From positions 1-50,440 of the forward strand of contig NZ_FNWL01000003.1 of assembly GCF_900108095.1 (NCBI RefSeq): 50,440 bases of DNA, written 5' to 3'. The position numbers and the translations under genes were made by a program. Shown piece by piece: positions 1 through 45,107 of the stretch (the first letter of the stretch is position 1; every line of letters begins with the position of its first letter). A model generated the notes under the pieces. The model saw only the letters and a program-made list of their open reading frames with translations, was not told the origin of the DNA and ran no database searches. Source of the DNA: Natronorubrum sediminis (GTDB taxonomy: Archaea; Halobacteriota; Halobacteria; Halobacteriales; Natrialbaceae).

Positions 1-12
1 GGATCACTCCGG

Positions 13-33
13 TTCGAAGGGGTTATGTACCCC
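13..33 (+). promoter_or_regulatory. rRNA operon promoter
   Basis: The stretch TTCGA, four G, TTATGTACCCC resembles the repeated promoters of haloarchaeal rRNA operons, in which a TTCGA element precedes a TTATGTA-type TATA box. The box lies at about 23-29, so transcription would start near 50, ahead of the 16S processing stem at 106. Further tandem promoters, common in this position, would lie outside the window. Assignment rests on remembered similarity. Confidence 0.6.
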
Positions 34-105
34 GGATGGCTTAGGAGTAGATCCGAAGGAAATGAGAATCCTACCCCTGCGGTCCGCCGTATAGATGGGA
101 TTTGA

Positions 106-139
106 TGTTAGCCTTGGTAGTTCGGTGTCGCTTGATCGG
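106..139 (+). other. 5' half of 16S processing stem (bulge-helix-bulge)
   Basis: Bases 106-123 are perfectly complementary to 1828-1845. They are followed by GGTG (124-127), which pairs with CACC at 1821-1824, a 3-nt bulge (128-130), and 131-139, which pairs with 1812-1820. A 4-bp helix flanked by a 3-nt bulge on each strand is the canonical archaeal bulge-helix-bulge site cut by the tRNA-splicing endonuclease EndA. Cutting here would release pre-16S rRNA. Confidence 0.9.
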
Positions 140-252
140 TCGGCGATCTGGGGGACATCGAACGTGGACCCATGTGTGAGTGTGTATCTTGGATACGACA
201 TTCACCGCCAAATTTAGCCCTCCCAGCTCATTGGGGCTGGGAGTTAGATAGC

Positions 253-1725
<1,473 letters not shown>

Positions 1726-1811
1726 ACAGACCGGGACTGGGGCGTCGCCCCAGCCCAGAAGCCGTGACGGTTTTCCGTCACGCAGTTCACGTTCGATCGC
1801 CCACCGTTAGG

Positions 1812-1845
1812 CCGATCGAGCACCTCAGAACTACCAAGGCTAACA
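1812..1845 (+). other. 3' half of 16S processing stem (bulge-helix-bulge)
   Basis: Partner of 106-139. Bases 1812-1820 pair with 131-139 (one G-U), CACC 1821-1824 pairs with 124-127, the TCA at 1825-1827 is the second 3-nt bulge, and 1828-1845 pairs perfectly with 106-123. Together the two halves give a textbook EndA substrate enclosing the 16S rRNA. Confidence 0.9.
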
Positions 1846-1878
1846 CTCACCTCGTGTCCACCATCGAGTGGTGGACGT

Positions 1879-1950
1879 GGGCCCATAGCTCAGTGGTAGA
1901 GTGCCTCCTTTGCAAGGAGGATGCCCAGGGTTCGAATCCCTGTGGGTCCA
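1879..1950 (+). tRNA. tRNA-Ala (TGC)
   Basis: Cloverleaf tRNA of 72 nt in the 16S-23S spacer, the usual place for tRNA-Ala in haloarchaeal operons. The acceptor GGGCCCA pairs with TGGGTCC (one G-U), the discriminator is A, the anticodon stem CTCCT/AGGAG closes the loop TTTGCAA giving anticodon TGC, and the T-loop is GGTTCGAATCC. CCA is not continued as CCA after the discriminator, so it is added after transcription. Confidence 0.98.
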
Positions 1951-2097
1951 TGACTCGGAGGAAATCACGGATCGTGTCCCTTAAGTGGGAGACGACCCGA
2001 GGATTGAATCCGAAGCAGAACCGATGCACCAGCCCGCGCAAGTGTGGCTGGGAAGGGTCAATGCAGGCCGGCCGTCTACCGGCGTGCAGATGAGACT

Positions 2098-2135
2098 GTG
2101 TGTACGTGTAGTCCAGGCGTCCACTGGACCCGTTC
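2098..2135 (+). other. 5' half of 23S processing stem
   Basis: Bases 2098-2116 pair with 5151-5169 with one mismatch. GCGTC (2117-2121) can pair with GACGC (5143-5147), and the sequence ending CGTTC pairs with 5132-5141. The unpaired CAC on this strand and AAA on the other flank the short central helix, so the stem looks like a bulge-helix-bulge site for EndA around pre-23S rRNA. The exact register is less clean than at 16S. Confidence 0.8.
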
Positions 2136-2183
2136 CCGGGTCACTTAACGATTACATCTTTGATGTAATCCCGATCCGATGAA

Positions 2184-5099
<2,916 letters not shown>

Positions 5100-5130
5100 C
5101 ATACATTATCGCATTGGATCCGTGACGCGG

Positions 5131-5170
5131 AGAACGGGTCCGGACGCAAACTGGACTACACATACACACG
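5131..5170 (+). other. 3' half of 23S processing stem
   Basis: Complement of 2098-2135: 5132-5141 pairs with the distal arm, GACGC (5143-5147) with 2117-2121, AAA is a 3-nt bulge and 5151-5169 forms the outer helix. It separates 23S from 5S and would be cut during pre-rRNA maturation. Confidence 0.8.
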
Positions 5171-5221
5171 GTCAGAGGCCACCGATTACGGTTTAGCGAC
5201 GGTTCGAGTCCGTTGATCGGC

Positions 5222-5343
5222 ATTACGGCGGCCAGAGCGACGAGGTGCCTCCCGTACCCATCCCGAACACGGAAGATAAGCTCGTCTGCGTATCGGCACG
5301 TACTGGAGTGCGCGAGCCTCTGGGATCCCCGATTCGCCGCCTT
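5222..5343 (+). rRNA. rrf: 5S ribosomal RNA
   Basis: About 122 nt. It contains the strongly conserved haloarchaeal 5S core GTACCCATCCCGAACACGG and the segment ACTGGAGTGCGCGAGCCTC. The 5' GGCGG pairs with the 3' CCGCC to close helix I. It is the last rRNA of the operon, about 120 bases after 23S. Confidence 0.97.
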
Positions 5344-5355
5344 CACTCATACTCT

Positions 5356-5377
5356 TTCAATCCCTCACGGGATTGAA
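5356..5377. repeat. 9-bp perfect hairpin after 5S
   Basis: TTCAATCCC, loop TCAC, GGGATTGAA form a perfect 9-bp stem between the 5S 3' end and the main terminator. It could be an RNA processing or first termination hairpin. It is not followed by a T-run. Confidence 0.7.
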
Positions 5378-5386
5378 CTCATAACA

Positions 5387-5424
5387 AACCCACAGAGCAA
5401 CAGCAATCGCTCTGTGGGTTTTTT
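5387..5424 (+). terminator. rRNA operon terminator (hairpin plus T-run)
   Basis: AACCCACAGAGC (5387-5398) is perfectly complementary to GCTCTGTGGGTT (5409-5420). The loop is 10 nt and the run of T continues to 5424. The shape is that of a bacterial intrinsic terminator. In archaea the T-run alone is usually what matters, so the long stem is noteworthy. It lies 40-80 bases after 5S and before the separate promoter of tRNA-Cys. Confidence 0.85.
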
Positions 5425-5472
5425 GCGTATAGCCAATACAGGTAGATAGCAACGGCTGTACTGTACCGCTAT

Positions 5473-5480
5473 GCTTAAAC
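5473..5480 (+). promoter_or_regulatory. TATA box of tRNA-Cys
   Basis: GCTTAAAC is centred about 28 bases before the first base of tRNA-Cys, the expected spacing for an archaeal TATA box with a start at or just before the tRNA. This suggests tRNA-Cys is transcribed independently of the rRNA operon. Confidence 0.6.
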
Positions 5481-5504
5481 GAACGGGGTGATAAGACGAG
5501 ATTG

Positions 5505-5581
5505 CGCCAAGGTGGCAGAGTCCGGCCGAACGCAGCGGCCTGCAGAGCCGCCCACCGCCGGTTCAAATCCGGCCCTTGGCT
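5505..5581 (+). tRNA. tRNA-Cys (GCA)
   Basis: Cloverleaf of 77 nt. The acceptor GCCAAGG pairs with CCTTGGC, the anticodon stem GCGGC/GCCGC encloses the loop CTGCAGA giving anticodon GCA, and the T-arm is CCGGTTCAAATCCGG. The discriminator is T (U73), the identity base for tRNA-Cys. A tRNA-Cys just after the rRNA operon is common in haloarchaea. Confidence 0.97.
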
Positions 5582-5682
5582 TAAATTCTCGTAACTTTTT
5601 GTGGGATATCAGCACGTAACCGACGTTAGAGTCACAAACTTACTCTCAGCCCAATTGAATCAGGGGGTGAATTCTCTGATAG

Positions 5683-6479
5683 CTAGCTTGGGGCTGCTTC
5701 AACGAGTCGGTCAATGCCCTCGAACATCTCGTCAATGGAACCGAGTGCAATCGTATAGGGGCCATCGTACCCGTGTTCTTCGAGTTGTGAGAAGAGTGAC
5801 TCAAAGTCGATCGTCCCGTGTCCAGGCATAAGGTGTTCTTCTTTGATGCCTCTGTTGTCGTTGAGTCGGACCTCGCAACAACGTTCGAGATCTAATTCAG
5901 AGATGAAGGCGTTGATACCGGCGTCTGCGAGGTGTGCATGTGCAGGATTAAACGCCCACTTGAGATTTGGCGAGTCCAACTCGTCAAAATACCGTTGGCA
6001 GTCTGTAAGGGTTGAGCAAAGGTAGTGGACCTCTGCGTCATCTGGTTCTGGATTCATATTTTCGAGCAAGAGATCGACGTCCTGCGTCTCTGCGTACGAT
6101 AAGAAACGATCGAGCCGATCAATGCTCACCTCCCGTCGTATCTCCTCGTCGGTTGTAAAGTGATATCCCGCGTGGACGATGATGCGGTCGGCTGACATGG
6201 CTGCGGCGATATCGACGTATCTTCGAAGGTACTCGTCCACAGCGTCACTCGTAAGGGGTGAGTTTTCGGCGGTATTCACGGCCGAGAGGGTATATGCAGT
6301 CCGAGACTAATTCCGTGTTCATCACAGGCCGATCGCACATCCTCGTATTCGACATCATCCAATGACTCGTTATCCAAACAGACATCGACATACTGTACGT
6401 CGTTCTCTGCTGCCCACAAAACGGCTTCAGACGGTGGGAAGCGTGTGCCGTGATCCATCCCGAATTGATTTCGATTCAT
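5683..6479 (-). pseudogene. frameshifted sugar-phosphate isomerase/epimerase-like TIM barrel
   Basis: Two reading frames on the minus strand join into one TIM-barrel protein of the xylose-isomerase-like (AP endonuclease family 2) type. The N-terminal 67 codons (6479-6276) end in a stop, while the remainder (198 codons from a GTG at 6279) continues in another frame. Removing one AT from the duplicated ATAT at 6291-6295 restores HTLSAVNTAEN in a single frame of about 264 codons. The usual metal-binding FDPxHA appears as FNPAHA, and the Glu expected on the last strand is missing (YTIALGS), so the catalytic site is also degenerate. The gene is richer in AT than most of the window and points away from the EboB-like gene at 6800. 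It may be a real pseudogene, a sequencing error or a recoded gene. Confidence 0.75.
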
Positions 6480-6799
6480 TCGTGGTCGTCACCTACCGAC
6501 TGGGTTTCGAGGCGCTACTATATCAATACTGACAAGAAATCAGTAGTGTCATCCTCTCGAGATTATGTGATTCGTAGCGAGTGTTTCCCCTCCGATGTCG
6601 CTTGCCAGTTCTAACGCACAGAGACGAGCGCAGTAGTCGAGGCTACACGGTCGTCGGTACGGCCCTCGAGTGTGCGCCCGGATACAACCGTTGCGCCGAT
6701 GGAATTGTCTGCCCTCCTTCGCGTTATTGAATATGCGGGGGTATGTTTACTGCTACCGTCTAACAATGCTTATGTCGTCACTCGCTGAACTCATGGCAG
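6480..6799. other. intergenic region between divergent genes
   Basis: This 320-base spacer separates the broken TIM-barrel gene (minus) and the EboB-like gene (plus), so it should hold both promoters. I see no convincing gene. Only short, low-quality open frames cross it. Confidence 0.6.
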
Positions 6800-7831
6800 A
6801 TGTCGTCAGACTACCCAACCCGAAAATCGGTGGGCTTGTTTCGAAACGAAGACGTGGGGTTCCAACAGAACATGCCGCCGGATTCCACGCGTATTCCGTG
6901 GATCGATAGCCATTCTCATGCCCACACTGGATCGTGGAACGACCGTCACGAGTTTGATTTGTCTGGAGGACTCGCCGTTGTCATGGTTGCAAGTAGTGCA
7001 TCGCGTGCACCGTATCGACCGATGACTGCTGAGGATATGCAGTCTCAGTGGGACGTTGCTATCAAGCGTTGTCACGCAATCTCGCGCAGTCACTTTTTTG
7101 AGCCGTACGTCGCGCTCGCGGTTCATACGACGAGAACACGAACGGAGAATTGGAAAACACTCGTTGAGAAGCTACCTGCATACGCCGAACTGGATGAGGT
7201 TATCGCAATCGGTGAGACCGGCATCTCGTTGAATACTGCGCAGGTGGCTGATCCGTGGCCACTCGAAACGCAGAAAGAAGTTGTCGCTAAACAGATGGCT
7301 GTTGCTCGAGACGCTAACGTCCCCTTCATCTGCCACACGCCAAAATCGATGAAATCGACTGGCGATCGGTGGGTACGAGGAAAAACAGAGAGTGGTCACA
7401 ACCTCCCTCCTTCTGATCAATTGTCCACAGAGGATTCGTTAGATCCAGAATCAGCGAAGATAGATGCGACCAAAATCGACGTCCAACTCGCAAACGAGGC
7501 AAACCTACCGGAGAGCCGGCTCGTAATCGATCATGCGAACGAGGAAACCGCTTCTTATGTGTTAGAAAATACAGATTGTTACGTCGGCTTTTCGATGTAT
7601 GGTCATCCATCGCATCCGCCTATCGAAACTGTCGCGGACACGATCGAAGAGTATGGCTCAGATCGAGTCGTGATTAATACTGACATGAGCGGCTCTGCCG
7701 AACAGCGACCGTGTGCTCTCAAAGAAGTGATTCTCGATCTACTTCGACTCGACGTCTCCCCGTCGGACGTTCGAGCAGCAGTGTACGAAAACCCACGTGA
7801 CATTTTGGGTCTCACCCACCTGCCCGAGTAA
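6800..7831 (+). CDS. TatD-family metal-dependent hydrolase, EboB-like
   Basis: 343-residue amidohydrolase-fold protein related to TatD and to EboB. Metal-site motifs are intact: HSH in IDSHSHAH (about residues 36-43), Glu in GETG, His in ICHTPKS, His in VIDHANEE and Asp in VINTD near the C-terminus. It carries an extra Ser/Asp-rich segment (about 193-232) between the last two helical parts compared with the EboB-like protein at 38716. The chosen ATG may be too early. Residue 25 (position 6872) is another Met much nearer the first strand. The substrate is unknown. It is divergent from a frameshifted isomerase-like gene, so the pair looks like an incomplete ebo-type locus. GC content is visibly lower than in the main chromosome-like part of the window, suggesting transfer. 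Confidence 0.8.
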   Translation: MSSDYPTRKSVGLFRNEDVGFQQNMPPDSTRIPWIDSHSHAHTGSWNDRHEFDLSGGLAVVMVASSASRAPYRPMTAEDMQSQWDVAIKRCHAISRSHFFEPYVALAVHTTRTRTENWKTLVEKLPAYAELDEVIAIGETGISLNTAQVADPWPLETQKEVVAKQMAVARDANVPFICHTPKSMKSTGDRWVRGKTESGHNLPPSDQLSTEDSLDPESAKIDATKIDVQLANEANLPESRLVIDHANEETASYVLENTDCYVGFSMYGHPSHPPIETVADTIEEYGSDRVVINTDMSGSAEQRPCALKEVILDLLRLDVSPSDVRAAVYENPRDILGLTHLPE

Positions 7832-7950
7832 ATGTGACTAACTAACTGCGTGTCTGTGCACACCTACGCCGATTATTTCGGATTACCGTGCACTAACTTG
7901 AGTAGTATTAGACCGTCGAATTCATTAGTATCAACCCTAATTGTCGTGAA

Positions 7951-8031: not shown

Positions 8032-8055
8032 TCACGAATCATTCGTCGTTAGAAG

Positions 8056-8129
<74 letters not shown>

Positions 8130-8245: not shown

Positions 8246-8941
8246 TTACTCGAAGTACTGCTCGAGTGCGTCGGTGACGATCTCTCCGGGATTGGTCCCG
8301 TCGATCGAGGCGCGGCGGCGGAGATCGCGATAGGTTGTCGGAGAGAGTGTTATTTCGAGTTGTCCCAGTGTGACGTTGTGGTCGGCGAGGGCGTGTTCGA
8401 TAGGGGTGCCGTCGTTGACGGCGCTTGCGACCGCCCGGACGTCGCGGACGGTGAGGTTCCCATCGAGTGTGGCCCACGCGAGGAGATGTCTCGCTTCGCC
8501 ACCGACGCGGGCGATGTGTTTTGCAGCAGTGGGTGCAATTCCGCCGAGTGCGACCTGTTTGCGGACTGCTCGAGGAAGGTCGTGAACGCGGGCCCATTTT
8601 CGGATGAAGGAGATCGTGGCTTCGCCGTCGGTACGTTCGGCTGCTGCTTTGTACGATCCTTCACCGCGGACGAGAGCGGCACATGCGGCGGCGCCGCGGA
8701 GCATGTAGAGGTGGTCGTCGTTCGTCGAGCCACTCGCGAATTCGCGGACGGTTTCGGCGGCATCGGCGAGGCTGTCTGGATTATCTGGGTCAAATTGGAC
8801 CGCGTCACGGGCTCGTGAACCGGTGACTGATTCGTCTCCACGAATAACTGGCTCACCGACGGGTGATTCACGATCCGTTGGAACTGAGCGCCTTCGGTCG
8901 CGCCTGGTTCGTGAGCGATCGCTGGCCCGATTGTCAGTCAT
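8246..8941 (-). CDS. conserved haloarchaeal protein (DUF7119-like)
   Basis: 231 residues. It has a basic, disordered N-terminus (about 1-45) followed by a conserved helical region with segments such as YMLRGAAACAALVRGEG, GSYKAAAERT and GGIAPTAAKHIARV, then a C-terminal part (LSPTTYRDLRRRAS, GTNPGEIVTDAL) that resembles a ribbon-helix-helix or antitoxin-like DNA-binding tail. From memory the family is DUF7119, common in haloarchaea and of unknown role. The helical core recalls ParB-type helix-turn-helix proteins, so a nucleic-acid-binding role is plausible but inferred. The gene follows the small gene at 8993-9139 on the same strand. Confidence 0.75.
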   Translation of the reverse strand: MTDNRASDRSRTRRDRRRSVPTDRESPVGEPVIRGDESVTGSRARDAVQFDPDNPDSLADAAETVREFASGSTNDDHLYMLRGAAACAALVRGEGSYKAAAERTDGEATISFIRKWARVHDLPRAVRKQVALGGIAPTAAKHIARVGGEARHLLAWATLDGNLTVRDVRAVASAVNDGTPIEHALADHNVTLGQLEITLSPTTYRDLRRRASIDGTNPGEIVTDALEQYFE

Positions 8942-38715: not shown

Positions 38716-39516
38716 ATGCGGATTATCGACCCTCACATGCACATGATTTCGCGCTCCGCGGACGATTACGAGCGAGCGCGACGGGCCGGCATCGAGTGTT
38801 GTATCGAACCGGCGTTCTGGAGCGGACAGGACAAGCACAACGCCGGTTCGTTCTTCGATTACTTCGAGCAGATCATCGAACACGAGACCGACCGCGCGGA
38901 GCGGACGGCCAACGTGGACCACTACGTCACGATCGGTCTCGAGCCCAAGGAGGCCAACTACCGCGAGATGGCCGAGGAGGTCGTAGAGCGCGTCCCGGAG
39001 TACCTGGATCGCGACCCCGTCGTCGGCGTCGGCGAGATCGGCTTCGATCAGGTCACCGACGACGAGGAGTGGGCCTTCCGCGAGCAACTCGAGTTGGCCG
39101 AAGCACGCGAACTCCCCGTCATGATCCACACGCCCCACACCGACAAGCCGGCTGGCACCGAACGGATCGTCGAGATCATCGAGGAGATGGGGCTCACGGA
39201 AGAGCGAATCGTCATCGATCACAACACGGAGAACACGATCGACATCTCGACGCGAACCGACTGTTGGATCGGCTTCACGCTCTACCCCGGAAAGATCGAA
39301 GCCAGCGCGGCGATCGATCTCCTTGAGGAGTACGGCACCGACCGGATGCTGTTCAACAGCGCCGCCGACTGGGACCCCTCGGACCCGCTCGCGGTTCCGA
39401 AGGCGCGAGACGAGATGCTCGATCGGGGCTGGGAGCGCGAGGAGGTCAAGAAGGTCGTCTTCGACAACCCCTACGAGTTCTTCGATCAGTCGCCGAACTT
39501 CGACTACGAGCCCTGA
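38716..39516 (+). CDS. eboB: EboB-like TatD-family hydrolase
   Basis: 266 residues. It has the HMH metal motif at the start (IDPHMHM), then family-specific blocks: ECCIEPAFWSGQDKHNAGSF, VTIGLEPKEANYREMAEEVV, GVGEIGFDQVTDDE, MIHTPHTDKPAGTERI, VIDHNTENTI, GFTLYPGKIEASAAIDLL, NSAADWDPSDPLAVPK. These match EboB of the ebo cluster better than ordinary TatD DNases. GGAG seven bases before the ATG is a likely ribosome binding site. First gene of the plus-strand unit, 267 bases from the divergent ino1-like gene. The substrate is unknown. Confidence 0.88.
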   Translation: MRIIDPHMHMISRSADDYERARRAGIECCIEPAFWSGQDKHNAGSFFDYFEQIIEHETDRAERTANVDHYVTIGLEPKEANYREMAEEVVERVPEYLDRDPVVGVGEIGFDQVTDDEEWAFREQLELAEARELPVMIHTPHTDKPAGTERIVEIIEEMGLTEERIVIDHNTENTIDISTRTDCWIGFTLYPGKIEASAAIDLLEEYGTDRMLFNSAADWDPSDPLAVPKARDEMLDRGWEREEVKKVVFDNPYEFFDQSPNFDYEP

Positions 39517-44258: not shown

Positions 44259-45107
44259 ATGGTCGACCTCGCTTTCTCCACGAACGCGTACACGCGCCAC
44301 TCGCTGCCGACCGCGATTCGACGCATCGCTGACCACGGCTACGCCGGCGTCGAACTCCTCGGCGACGACCCCCACGCCTACTTCCCCGAATTTACCGAGG
44401 CGGACCGCGAGAATCTTCTCGAGGCACTCGAGGAGACCGACCTCGCCGTCTCGAACGTCAACGCGAACACGGCGATGGGGTACTACGACGACGCCCCACC
44501 CTCGGCGTTTTTCGAACCGAGCATCATCCGTGCGGACGCGGACGCCCGCGAATGGAGAATCGAGTACACGAAGCGAGCGATCGACCTCGCGGACACGGTC
44601 GACGCCCCCGCGGTCTGTCTGGCCACCGGGCGGCCACTCCCCGGAACGATGCCCGAGGAGGCTCGTGCGTACCTCCTCGAGTCGCTCTCGTCGATCCTCG
44701 ATTACGCCGACGCTCGCGGCGTCGCGGTCGGCATCGAGTACGAACCCGAACTCCTGATCGAGAATACGGACGAAGTCCTCGACTTACTCGAGGAAGTCGA
44801 CCGCGAGGGGCTCGGGATCAATCTGGACGTGGGCCACGCGGCAGTTTACGGCGAGGACGTGGCTGAGAGCATTCGCCGCAGCGCCGGTTCGATCACCGGC
44901 ATTCACCTCGAGGACATCGTCGGTGGGCGGCGGGGCAAGCACTACCACCGAATCCCCGGCGAGGGCGACCTCGACTTTCGAGCGATTTTCGACGCGCTCG
45001 ACGACATCGGCTACGACGGCTTTGCCACCCTCGAGTTGTACACCTATCCCGACGAGCCGGATCGCGCGGCTCGAGACGCTTACGAGGCGCTCGAGGCGTA
45101 CGTGTAG
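44259..45107 (+). CDS. sugar-phosphate isomerase/epimerase-type TIM barrel, paralog of 39520
   Basis: 282 residues from the ATG at 44259 (MVDLAFSTNAYTRHS), which aligns with the start of the protein at 39520 (shared FSTNA opening, GYxGVELL, and IAVSN-like strands). Metal-site residues are kept: IEYEPELLIENT, INLDVGHAAVYGED, GIHLEDI, ATLELYTYP. An extra GGRRGKHYHRIPGEGDLDF segment supplies His residues near the active site. It stands alone between two Tat-exported sugar dehydrogenases that are divergent and co-oriented with it, respectively, which suggests a role in handling the oxidised or transported sugar. Confidence 0.88.
   Translation: MVDLAFSTNAYTRHSLPTAIRRIADHGYAGVELLGDDPHAYFPEFTEADRENLLEALEETDLAVSNVNANTAMGYYDDAPPSAFFEPSIIRADADAREWRIEYTKRAIDLADTVDAPAVCLATGRPLPGTMPEEARAYLLESLSSILDYADARGVAVGIEYEPELLIENTDEVLDLLEEVDREGLGINLDVGHAAVYGEDVAESIRRSAGSITGIHLEDIVGGRRGKHYHRIPGEGDLDFRAIFDALDDIGYDGFATLELYTYPDEPDRAARDAYEALEAYV

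Follow-up and report, generated by a model that had tools for sequence, protein, structure and literature searches.

Next to the rRNA operon of the haloarchaeon Natronorubrum sediminis, a hydrolase gene stands divergent from a TIM barrel gene whose reading frame is broken. To which system do these two genes belong, and how did they come to lie there? An earlier note read them as a second ebo-like pair, incomplete and decaying, in a region that was transferred and partly lost. The stretch of DNA analysed here (the window, 50,440 nucleotides) lies on contig C3 of the source genome, which is labelled G000. The sister species is labelled G001.

Locus layout and base composition

The window starts with the rRNA operon (16S, tRNA-Ala, 23S, 5S and tRNA-Cys), and its 16S, 23S and 5S RNAs were confirmed with Rfam. 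The pair sits between this tRNA-Cys and a tRNA-Lys (Table 1). The tRNA-Lys is adjoined by a gene for a DUF7119 protein (window 8249-8941), which is present in 37 of the 38 family genomes searched. The stretch between the tRNAs is low in GC, as had been noticed before. The GC content of 5698-7867 is 0.520, compared with 0.568 for 1-5600, 0.635 for 8246-50440 and 0.622 for the whole window. Codon use was compared with a reference of 205 genes from 19 stretches of the source genome. The GC3 values are 0.534 for the hydrolase and 0.581 for the second part of the barrel, and both are at the 0.5th percentile, whereas eboB, C, D, E and F are at the 68th-100th percentile. The comparison with the ebo genes that the earlier note had proposed therefore speaks against ordinary codon use.

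Table 1. Features of the locus between tRNA-Cys and tRNA-Lys, in window coordinates.
Feature	Position	Strand	Description
tRNA-Cys at the end of the rRNA operon, bordering the variable interval on the left	5506..5581	+	
TIM barrel, second, larger piece	5683..6279	-	198 aa, about strands 4-8, PF01261; GTG start
Segment absent from sister G001	5698..7867	.	Left edge inside the barrel coding tail; right edge about 36 bp 3' of the hydrolase stop
TIM barrel, N-terminal piece, xylose-isomerase-like	6276..6479	-	67 aa, roughly beta strands 1-3; terminated at the frame break
Divergent intergenic region between hydrolase and barrel	6480..6799	.	320 bp
TatD/amidohydrolase-superfamily hydrolase	6800..7831	+	343 aa, ORF and predicted metal ligands intact; member of a 5-row clade, not EboB
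tRNA-Lys, right border of the variable interval	8055..8129	-	

The hydrolase

The metal-ligand pattern of TatD enzymes is HxH, E, H, H and D. At these positions the hydrolase has SHSHAH, GETG, CHTP, IDHA and NTDM, so that its metal residues are complete, as the first reading had stated. It matched PF01026 (TatD_DNase) with an E value of 3.6e-15 and 56.5 bits (cut-off 27). Profile and ligands together identify it as a predicted PF01026 TatD-type metallohydrolase.

The placement of this protein was determined in a tree of 51 rows, composed of 39 long-type TatD proteins and 12 EboB rows, including the window EboB at 38716. L021, L142 and L143, which have internal stops, and places without an assigned locus were left out of the tree. 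The hydrolase forms a clade with the proteins of G358, G279, G170 and G263 (5 rows, support 100/99), which is sister to 26 long-type TatD rows; the program flagged long branches, that of the window row included, and a long-branch join beside the outgroup. A very long branch separates the 39 long-type TatD rows from the 12 EboB rows (EboB clade 100/100). With both proteins in one tree, the hydrolase thus lies outside the EboB clade, and the name EboB-like is valid at the superfamily level only.

The hydrolase deviates at 32 of the 145 positions common to its four clade mates. The same count gives 9/122 for G358, 12/125 for G279 and 2/115 each for G170 and G263. Its branch length is 0.54 compared with 0.23 and 0.31. 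The rate of change of the intact hydrolase is roughly double that of its relatives.

The barrel and its frame break

The barrel is encoded opposite to the hydrolase by two minus-strand ORFs (6479-6276 and 6279-5683) with one frame break near 6276, and the description of a frameshifted, divergent TIM barrel is correct. The stop of the first piece and the GTG start of the second overlap in the four bases GTGA. The second part matched PF01261 (E 4.9e-29; 102.2 bits, cut-off 31.1), a profile that matches the intact relatives along their length. The first piece (67 aa) had no Pfam match; it aligns to the N-termini of the intact relatives with 35-44% identity (tblastn E down to 8e-17). Judged from this alignment, the break would fall after the third predicted strand. 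In eight relatives, from seven haloarchaeal genomes and from Roseomonas, the barrel is a single uninterrupted ORF. Therefore, the frame break is specific to the window copy.

Of 60 positions that the other seven members conserve, 3 are changed in the second part; intact copies have 0-6 such changes. Its branch length is 0.32 compared with 0.40 and 0.44. It is as conserved as the intact relatives and is not eroded. Therefore, the break is recent, or it is an assembly error, or it is tolerated. The claim of decay holds in part: the frame break and the faster hydrolase agree with it, and the conservation of the second part of the barrel does not. The same conservation, together with the overlap of stop and start, would fit a barrel that is no pseudogene. 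Coupled termination and reinitiation at GTGA would then give a two-chain barrel, or the break would be an assembly error in an intact gene. We regard this as somewhat unlikely, considering that the intact relatives are all single ORFs and that a recent null mutation would give an identical picture.

Metal-dependent sugar isomerases and epimerases bind their metal with the ligands E, D, H and E. In all eight barrel-family rows the first E is retained, and N, R and A take the place of the D, H and E found in MJ1311 and EboE. The Roseomonas barrel has T, R and A there. With E-N-R-A in place of the four ligands, the family would fall outside the metal-dependent sugar isomerases/epimerases, and it probably acts without the usual divalent-metal site.

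Relation to the ebo cluster

PMC5133447 places EboB in a separate cluster close to the TatD family and assigns EboE to the xylose-isomerase-like barrels. Therefore, superfamily likeness alone cannot settle ebo membership. If the pair were an incomplete second ebo pair (EboB and EboE), the remnant of an ebo cluster that had been duplicated or transferred, the PF01026 and PF01261 matches that it has in common with EboB and EboE would be explained, as would the 31% identity of the hydrolase to EboB along part of its length. However, the hydrolase groups with the long-type TatD rows, far from EboB. The barrel stands in its own 9-row clade (support 94/96), apart from EboE. Its family has 20-23% full-length identity to the window EboE (25% in the case of the second part of the window barrel) and has lost three of the four metal ligands kept by EboE. 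No homologue of eboA, eboC, eboD or eboF lies next to the pair, whose neighbours are the rRNA genes, tRNA-Cys, tRNA-Lys and the DUF7119 gene. The ebo cluster of the window is about 28 kb away, and the relatives of the pair are found in CoA-transferase clusters. At the family level a second ebo copy is ruled out by the tree and the ligands, and the reading as a whole is highly improbable.

Another xylose-isomerase-like barrel, at window 44289-45104, lies near the ebo cluster. It groups with close homologues in relatives, apart from EboE.

The interval between tRNA-Cys and tRNA-Lys

The interval was compared in 17 sequences, the window and 16 loci. Convergent tRNA-Cys and tRNA-Lys were present in 14 of them, and L125, L126 and L134 were dropped. 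A 9-kb stretch of G009 (L125) was rejected as inter-tRNA cargo, the tRNAs there not being convergent. Eleven of the 14 intervals measure 125-654 bp. The three longer ones belong to the window (2473 bp), G016 (3686 bp) and G028 (4619 bp). Only the window interval holds the pair, and all 13 others are without it, which refutes conservation at this place in the relatives. In G028 the interval holds a resolvase-domain protein (L128:2519-3991), and in G016 a TetR regulator and two SDRs (L131:4717-7109). Therefore, it is a variable site. The presence of the pair in one of 14 intervals, the low GC3 and the scattered close relatives bear out the earlier idea that the pair was transferred.

The arms that G001 shares with the window reach to about window 5697 on the left and begin again at about 7868 on the right; at the left edge the homology can be extended to about 5712. 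The left arm continues past the barrel stop into the last codons with 21 of 30 bases matched (chance about 1e-6 at a fixed register), compared with 5 of the next 30. The barrel tail reads DRLHNAVPG* against DRLVEAAPS* in this comparison, and about nine last codons are apparently kept in G001. Therefore, presence of the pair in the common ancestor and later deletion in G001 are favoured by the sequence of the arms. An insertion in G000 that adopted resident codons is less likely.

A tRNA-targeted integrative element was also considered. The window has a single copy of the tRNA-Lys 3' end with no repeat at both borders, and no integrase was recognised among the ORFs of its interval. Inside the interval, partial copies of this 3' end, about 29 bases long, are seen in L119 (G001), L120, L124, L127, L128, L129 and L134, and not in the window. 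The G001 interval (L119) has two such copies in tandem units of about 120 bp. The partial copies seem to have been left behind by integration or duplication that took place repeatedly.

Joint distribution of the two families

A search with the barrel profile (E up to 1e-25) found the family in 5 of the 341 sampled genomes of the class, namely G000, G170, G263, G279 and G309. The hydrolase clade occurs in four (G000, G170, G263 and G279), all of them within these five. Its members are 48-57% identical to the window protein, and the remaining long-type matches are 36-47% identical (85 of 341 genomes with any match). Within the family of the source genome, the barrel is present in 2 of 125 genomes. 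G358, a Haloarculaceae MAG (L074) that was first found by its hydrolase only, also carries the barrel (E 8.9e-89). Both families are carried by the same 3 of 81 genera; the probability that chance gives such an exact match is 1.2e-5 if the genera are independent. The barrel is present without a clade hydrolase in G309 (99% complete), and no member of the hydrolase clade was found in G012 (70% complete) and G048 (78% complete), which also have the barrel. G309 has a broken TatD relic with an internal gap and a frame change. Its 43% partial match had made it a candidate for the hydrolase clade, which was rejected as the fragment grouped with the protein of G230 (69%). The overall result indicated that barrel and hydrolase are rare families that travel together.

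Could they nevertheless be two unrelated genes that landed side by side in a variable, tRNA-flanked interval? Their co-occurrence would then reflect a common donor lineage and not a function. The different cargo of the interval in G028 and G016 is in line with this, as is the fact that the genes are adjacent in G000 only and far apart in G170 and G263. On the other hand, they co-occur in four lineages, with G358 found independently, and in G279 they are at most 5 kb apart, with the hydrolase adjoining a CoA-transferase gene. Chance neighbourhood is therefore considered unlikely.

Gene neighbourhoods in relatives

In G279 the barrel, the hydrolase, a type-III CoA-transferase and an enoyl-CoA hydratase lie inside 8 kb. 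Genes for an SDR, a thioesterase, a flavin reductase, a hexapeptide protein and an IclR regulator are nearby, followed by TctA and UspA homologues. In G263, G170 and G309 the barrel is near genes for a CoA-transferase, TctC, TctA, TctB, a YdiJ-like FAD/iron-sulphur dehydrogenase, UspA, a hydratase and a 2-hydroxyacid dehydrogenase. In G358 it adjoins a hydratase and UspA, the only such partners on that contig, and in G012 a 2-hydroxyacid dehydrogenase. The short stretches of G012 and G048 did not show the full linkage to CoA-transferase, hydratase and Tct genes. On plasmid p1318-3 of Roseomonas marmotae, the CoA transferase, enoyl-CoA hydratase and barrel genes are consecutive and divergent from GntR-TctC-TctB-TctA; the barrel is 44% identical to that of G279. 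The barrel is thus linked to CoA-transferase, hydratase and Tct genes in G279, G263, G170, G309 and Roseomonas. The hydratases of G263, G170 and Roseomonas share only 28-34% identity with the others. Therefore, the sameness of the module in these three rests on the barrel, the CoA-transferase and Tct. A literature search, judged from its result lists, found no description of such a module.

A close CoA-transferase (E up to 1e-112) is present in 9 of the 341 class genomes, compared with five for the barrel, and four of these nine are without the barrel. A perfect co-occurrence of the two was therefore rejected. In G230 a divergent long-type TatD gene (G230:C1:2049993-2052251) adjoins a CoA-transferase gene with 50% identity to that of G279, which is a further link between these two families.

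The C1 island and the proposed module

In the source genome an island of about 22.5 kb (C1:1449796-1472355; L201, L202) has been inserted or deleted between two divergent conserved genes. In the sister G001, which lacks the island, its two flanks adjoin each other at a distance of 26 bp. It carries a CoA-transferase (C1:1459131-1460303) that is 75% identical to that of G279 and a hydratase (C1:1458275-1459048) that is 59% identical to that of G358 and 70% to that of G279. Only remote paralogues of the two are present in G001 and G005. The island also has genes for an IclR regulator, a LUD-domain/ferredoxin protein, a second CoA-transferase, UspA, TctC, TctB, TctA (81% identical to that of G279), an SDR (53%), a hexapeptide protein, MaoC, an FAA-hydrolase and a DASS-type transporter. 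The GC3 of IclR, UspA, TctC, TctB, TctA and MaoC is low like that of the pair (2.4th percentile or less), and that of the CoA-transferase ranks at the 7.8th. Measured against the same 205 reference genes, the FAA-hydrolase, second CoA-transferase, hydratase, SDR, hexapeptide and DASS genes do not have such a low GC3. An operator common to the island and the 320-bp intergenic region of the pair was sought; the inverted repeats were too weak, and none was convincing.

No single locus in G000 holds all parts of the module, as the CoA-transferase, hydratase and Tct genes are on C1 and the pair is on C3. For the CoA-transferase and the hydratase, G000 is nearest to G279. Its hydrolase falls outside G279 and G358 on a long branch. 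Therefore, the pair and the C1 island may have separate origins. The different placement of the hydrolase may reflect either faster change or a separate source.

Considering all of these results, the pair is probably a part, now displaced, of a module for organic-acid catabolism that was acquired horizontally, and not a second ebo cluster. Besides the TIM barrel and the TatD-type hydrolase, the module would comprise a tripartite tricarboxylate transporter, a type-III CoA-transferase and an enoyl-CoA hydratase/crotonase. At first, an organic acid would be taken up by the Tct transporter. Second, the hydrolase and the barrel would act on it ahead of activation: the hydrolase may open a ring, a lactone or an amide, and the barrel may rearrange or bind the free acid before CoA transfer and hydration. 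Third, the type-III CoA-transferase would activate the acid to its CoA ester, on which crotonase/hydratase chemistry would follow. In G000 the module would be split, with transporter, CoA-transferase and hydratase on C1 and barrel and hydrolase between tRNA-Cys and tRNA-Lys. We infer the substrate and the order of the steps, and likewise that the separated genes still act together. A bolder proposal, which seems quite unlikely, is that the barrel represents an undescribed cross-domain branch of xylose-isomerase-like proteins without the canonical metal site, a dedicated partner of type-III CoA-transferases and crotonases. It would still be made as two GTGA-coupled chains and would work with the fast-evolving hydrolase.

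This study corrects a wrong pathway label (ebo). It also points to a rare gene set that haloarchaea have in common with at least one bacterium. In this set a TIM barrel devoid of the usual metal site is accompanied by a CoA-transferase, a hydratase and a transporter for organic acids. The module predicts growth on a carboxylic acid. The source genome would be a clear example of one acquired module split over two chromosomal places, with a sister species that is without both parts.

Comparison with known systems

EboB and EboE, as described in PMC5133447 and PMC6282210, are from the same superfamilies as the pair (amidohydrolase/TatD-like and xylose-isomerase-like barrel). The window hydrolase (343 aa), in contrast, is extended at the N-terminus and carries a central insert, both of which are absent from EboB (266 aa). 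The relatives of the pair adjoin CoA-transferase and Tct genes, whereas EboB and EboE go with eboA/C/D/F.

The long haloarchaeal TatD hydrolases, such as that of G000 at C4:24940-25935, are the sister clade of the window hydrolase, with about 36-43% identity and equal length and ligands. However, they adjoin fumarylacetoacetate-hydrolase and amidohydrolase genes and form a clade apart, which has a conserved neighbourhood of its own. Codon use of the C4 copy is ordinary, unlike that of the window hydrolase. Long-type TatD genes (C4:24940-25935 and 15 loci) recur near fumarylacetoacetate-hydrolase-like, amidohydrolase-like, CoA-transferase and DoxX-like genes, with gene names partly assigned by eye. 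This neighbourhood, found in many haloarchaea, seems to be unnamed.

Among solved structures, the profile of the barrel family matched best to MJ1311 (PDB 3wqo), the L-ribulose-5-phosphate 3-epimerase UlaE, tagatose/allulose 3-epimerases and endonuclease IV, with E values from 9e-18 to 9e-4. These have the ligands D, H and E, whereas the barrel family has N, R and A at the aligned positions.

A bacterial counterpart is the p1318-3 operon of Roseomonas marmotae, in which the barrel orthologue, annotated as a sugar phosphate isomerase/epimerase family protein, stands in the same module as in haloarchaea. It differs in being bacterial, in having no TatD gene annotated within the 24.8 kb inspected, and in a CoA-transferase and a hydratase that are 33-39% and 28-34% identical to the archaeal ones.
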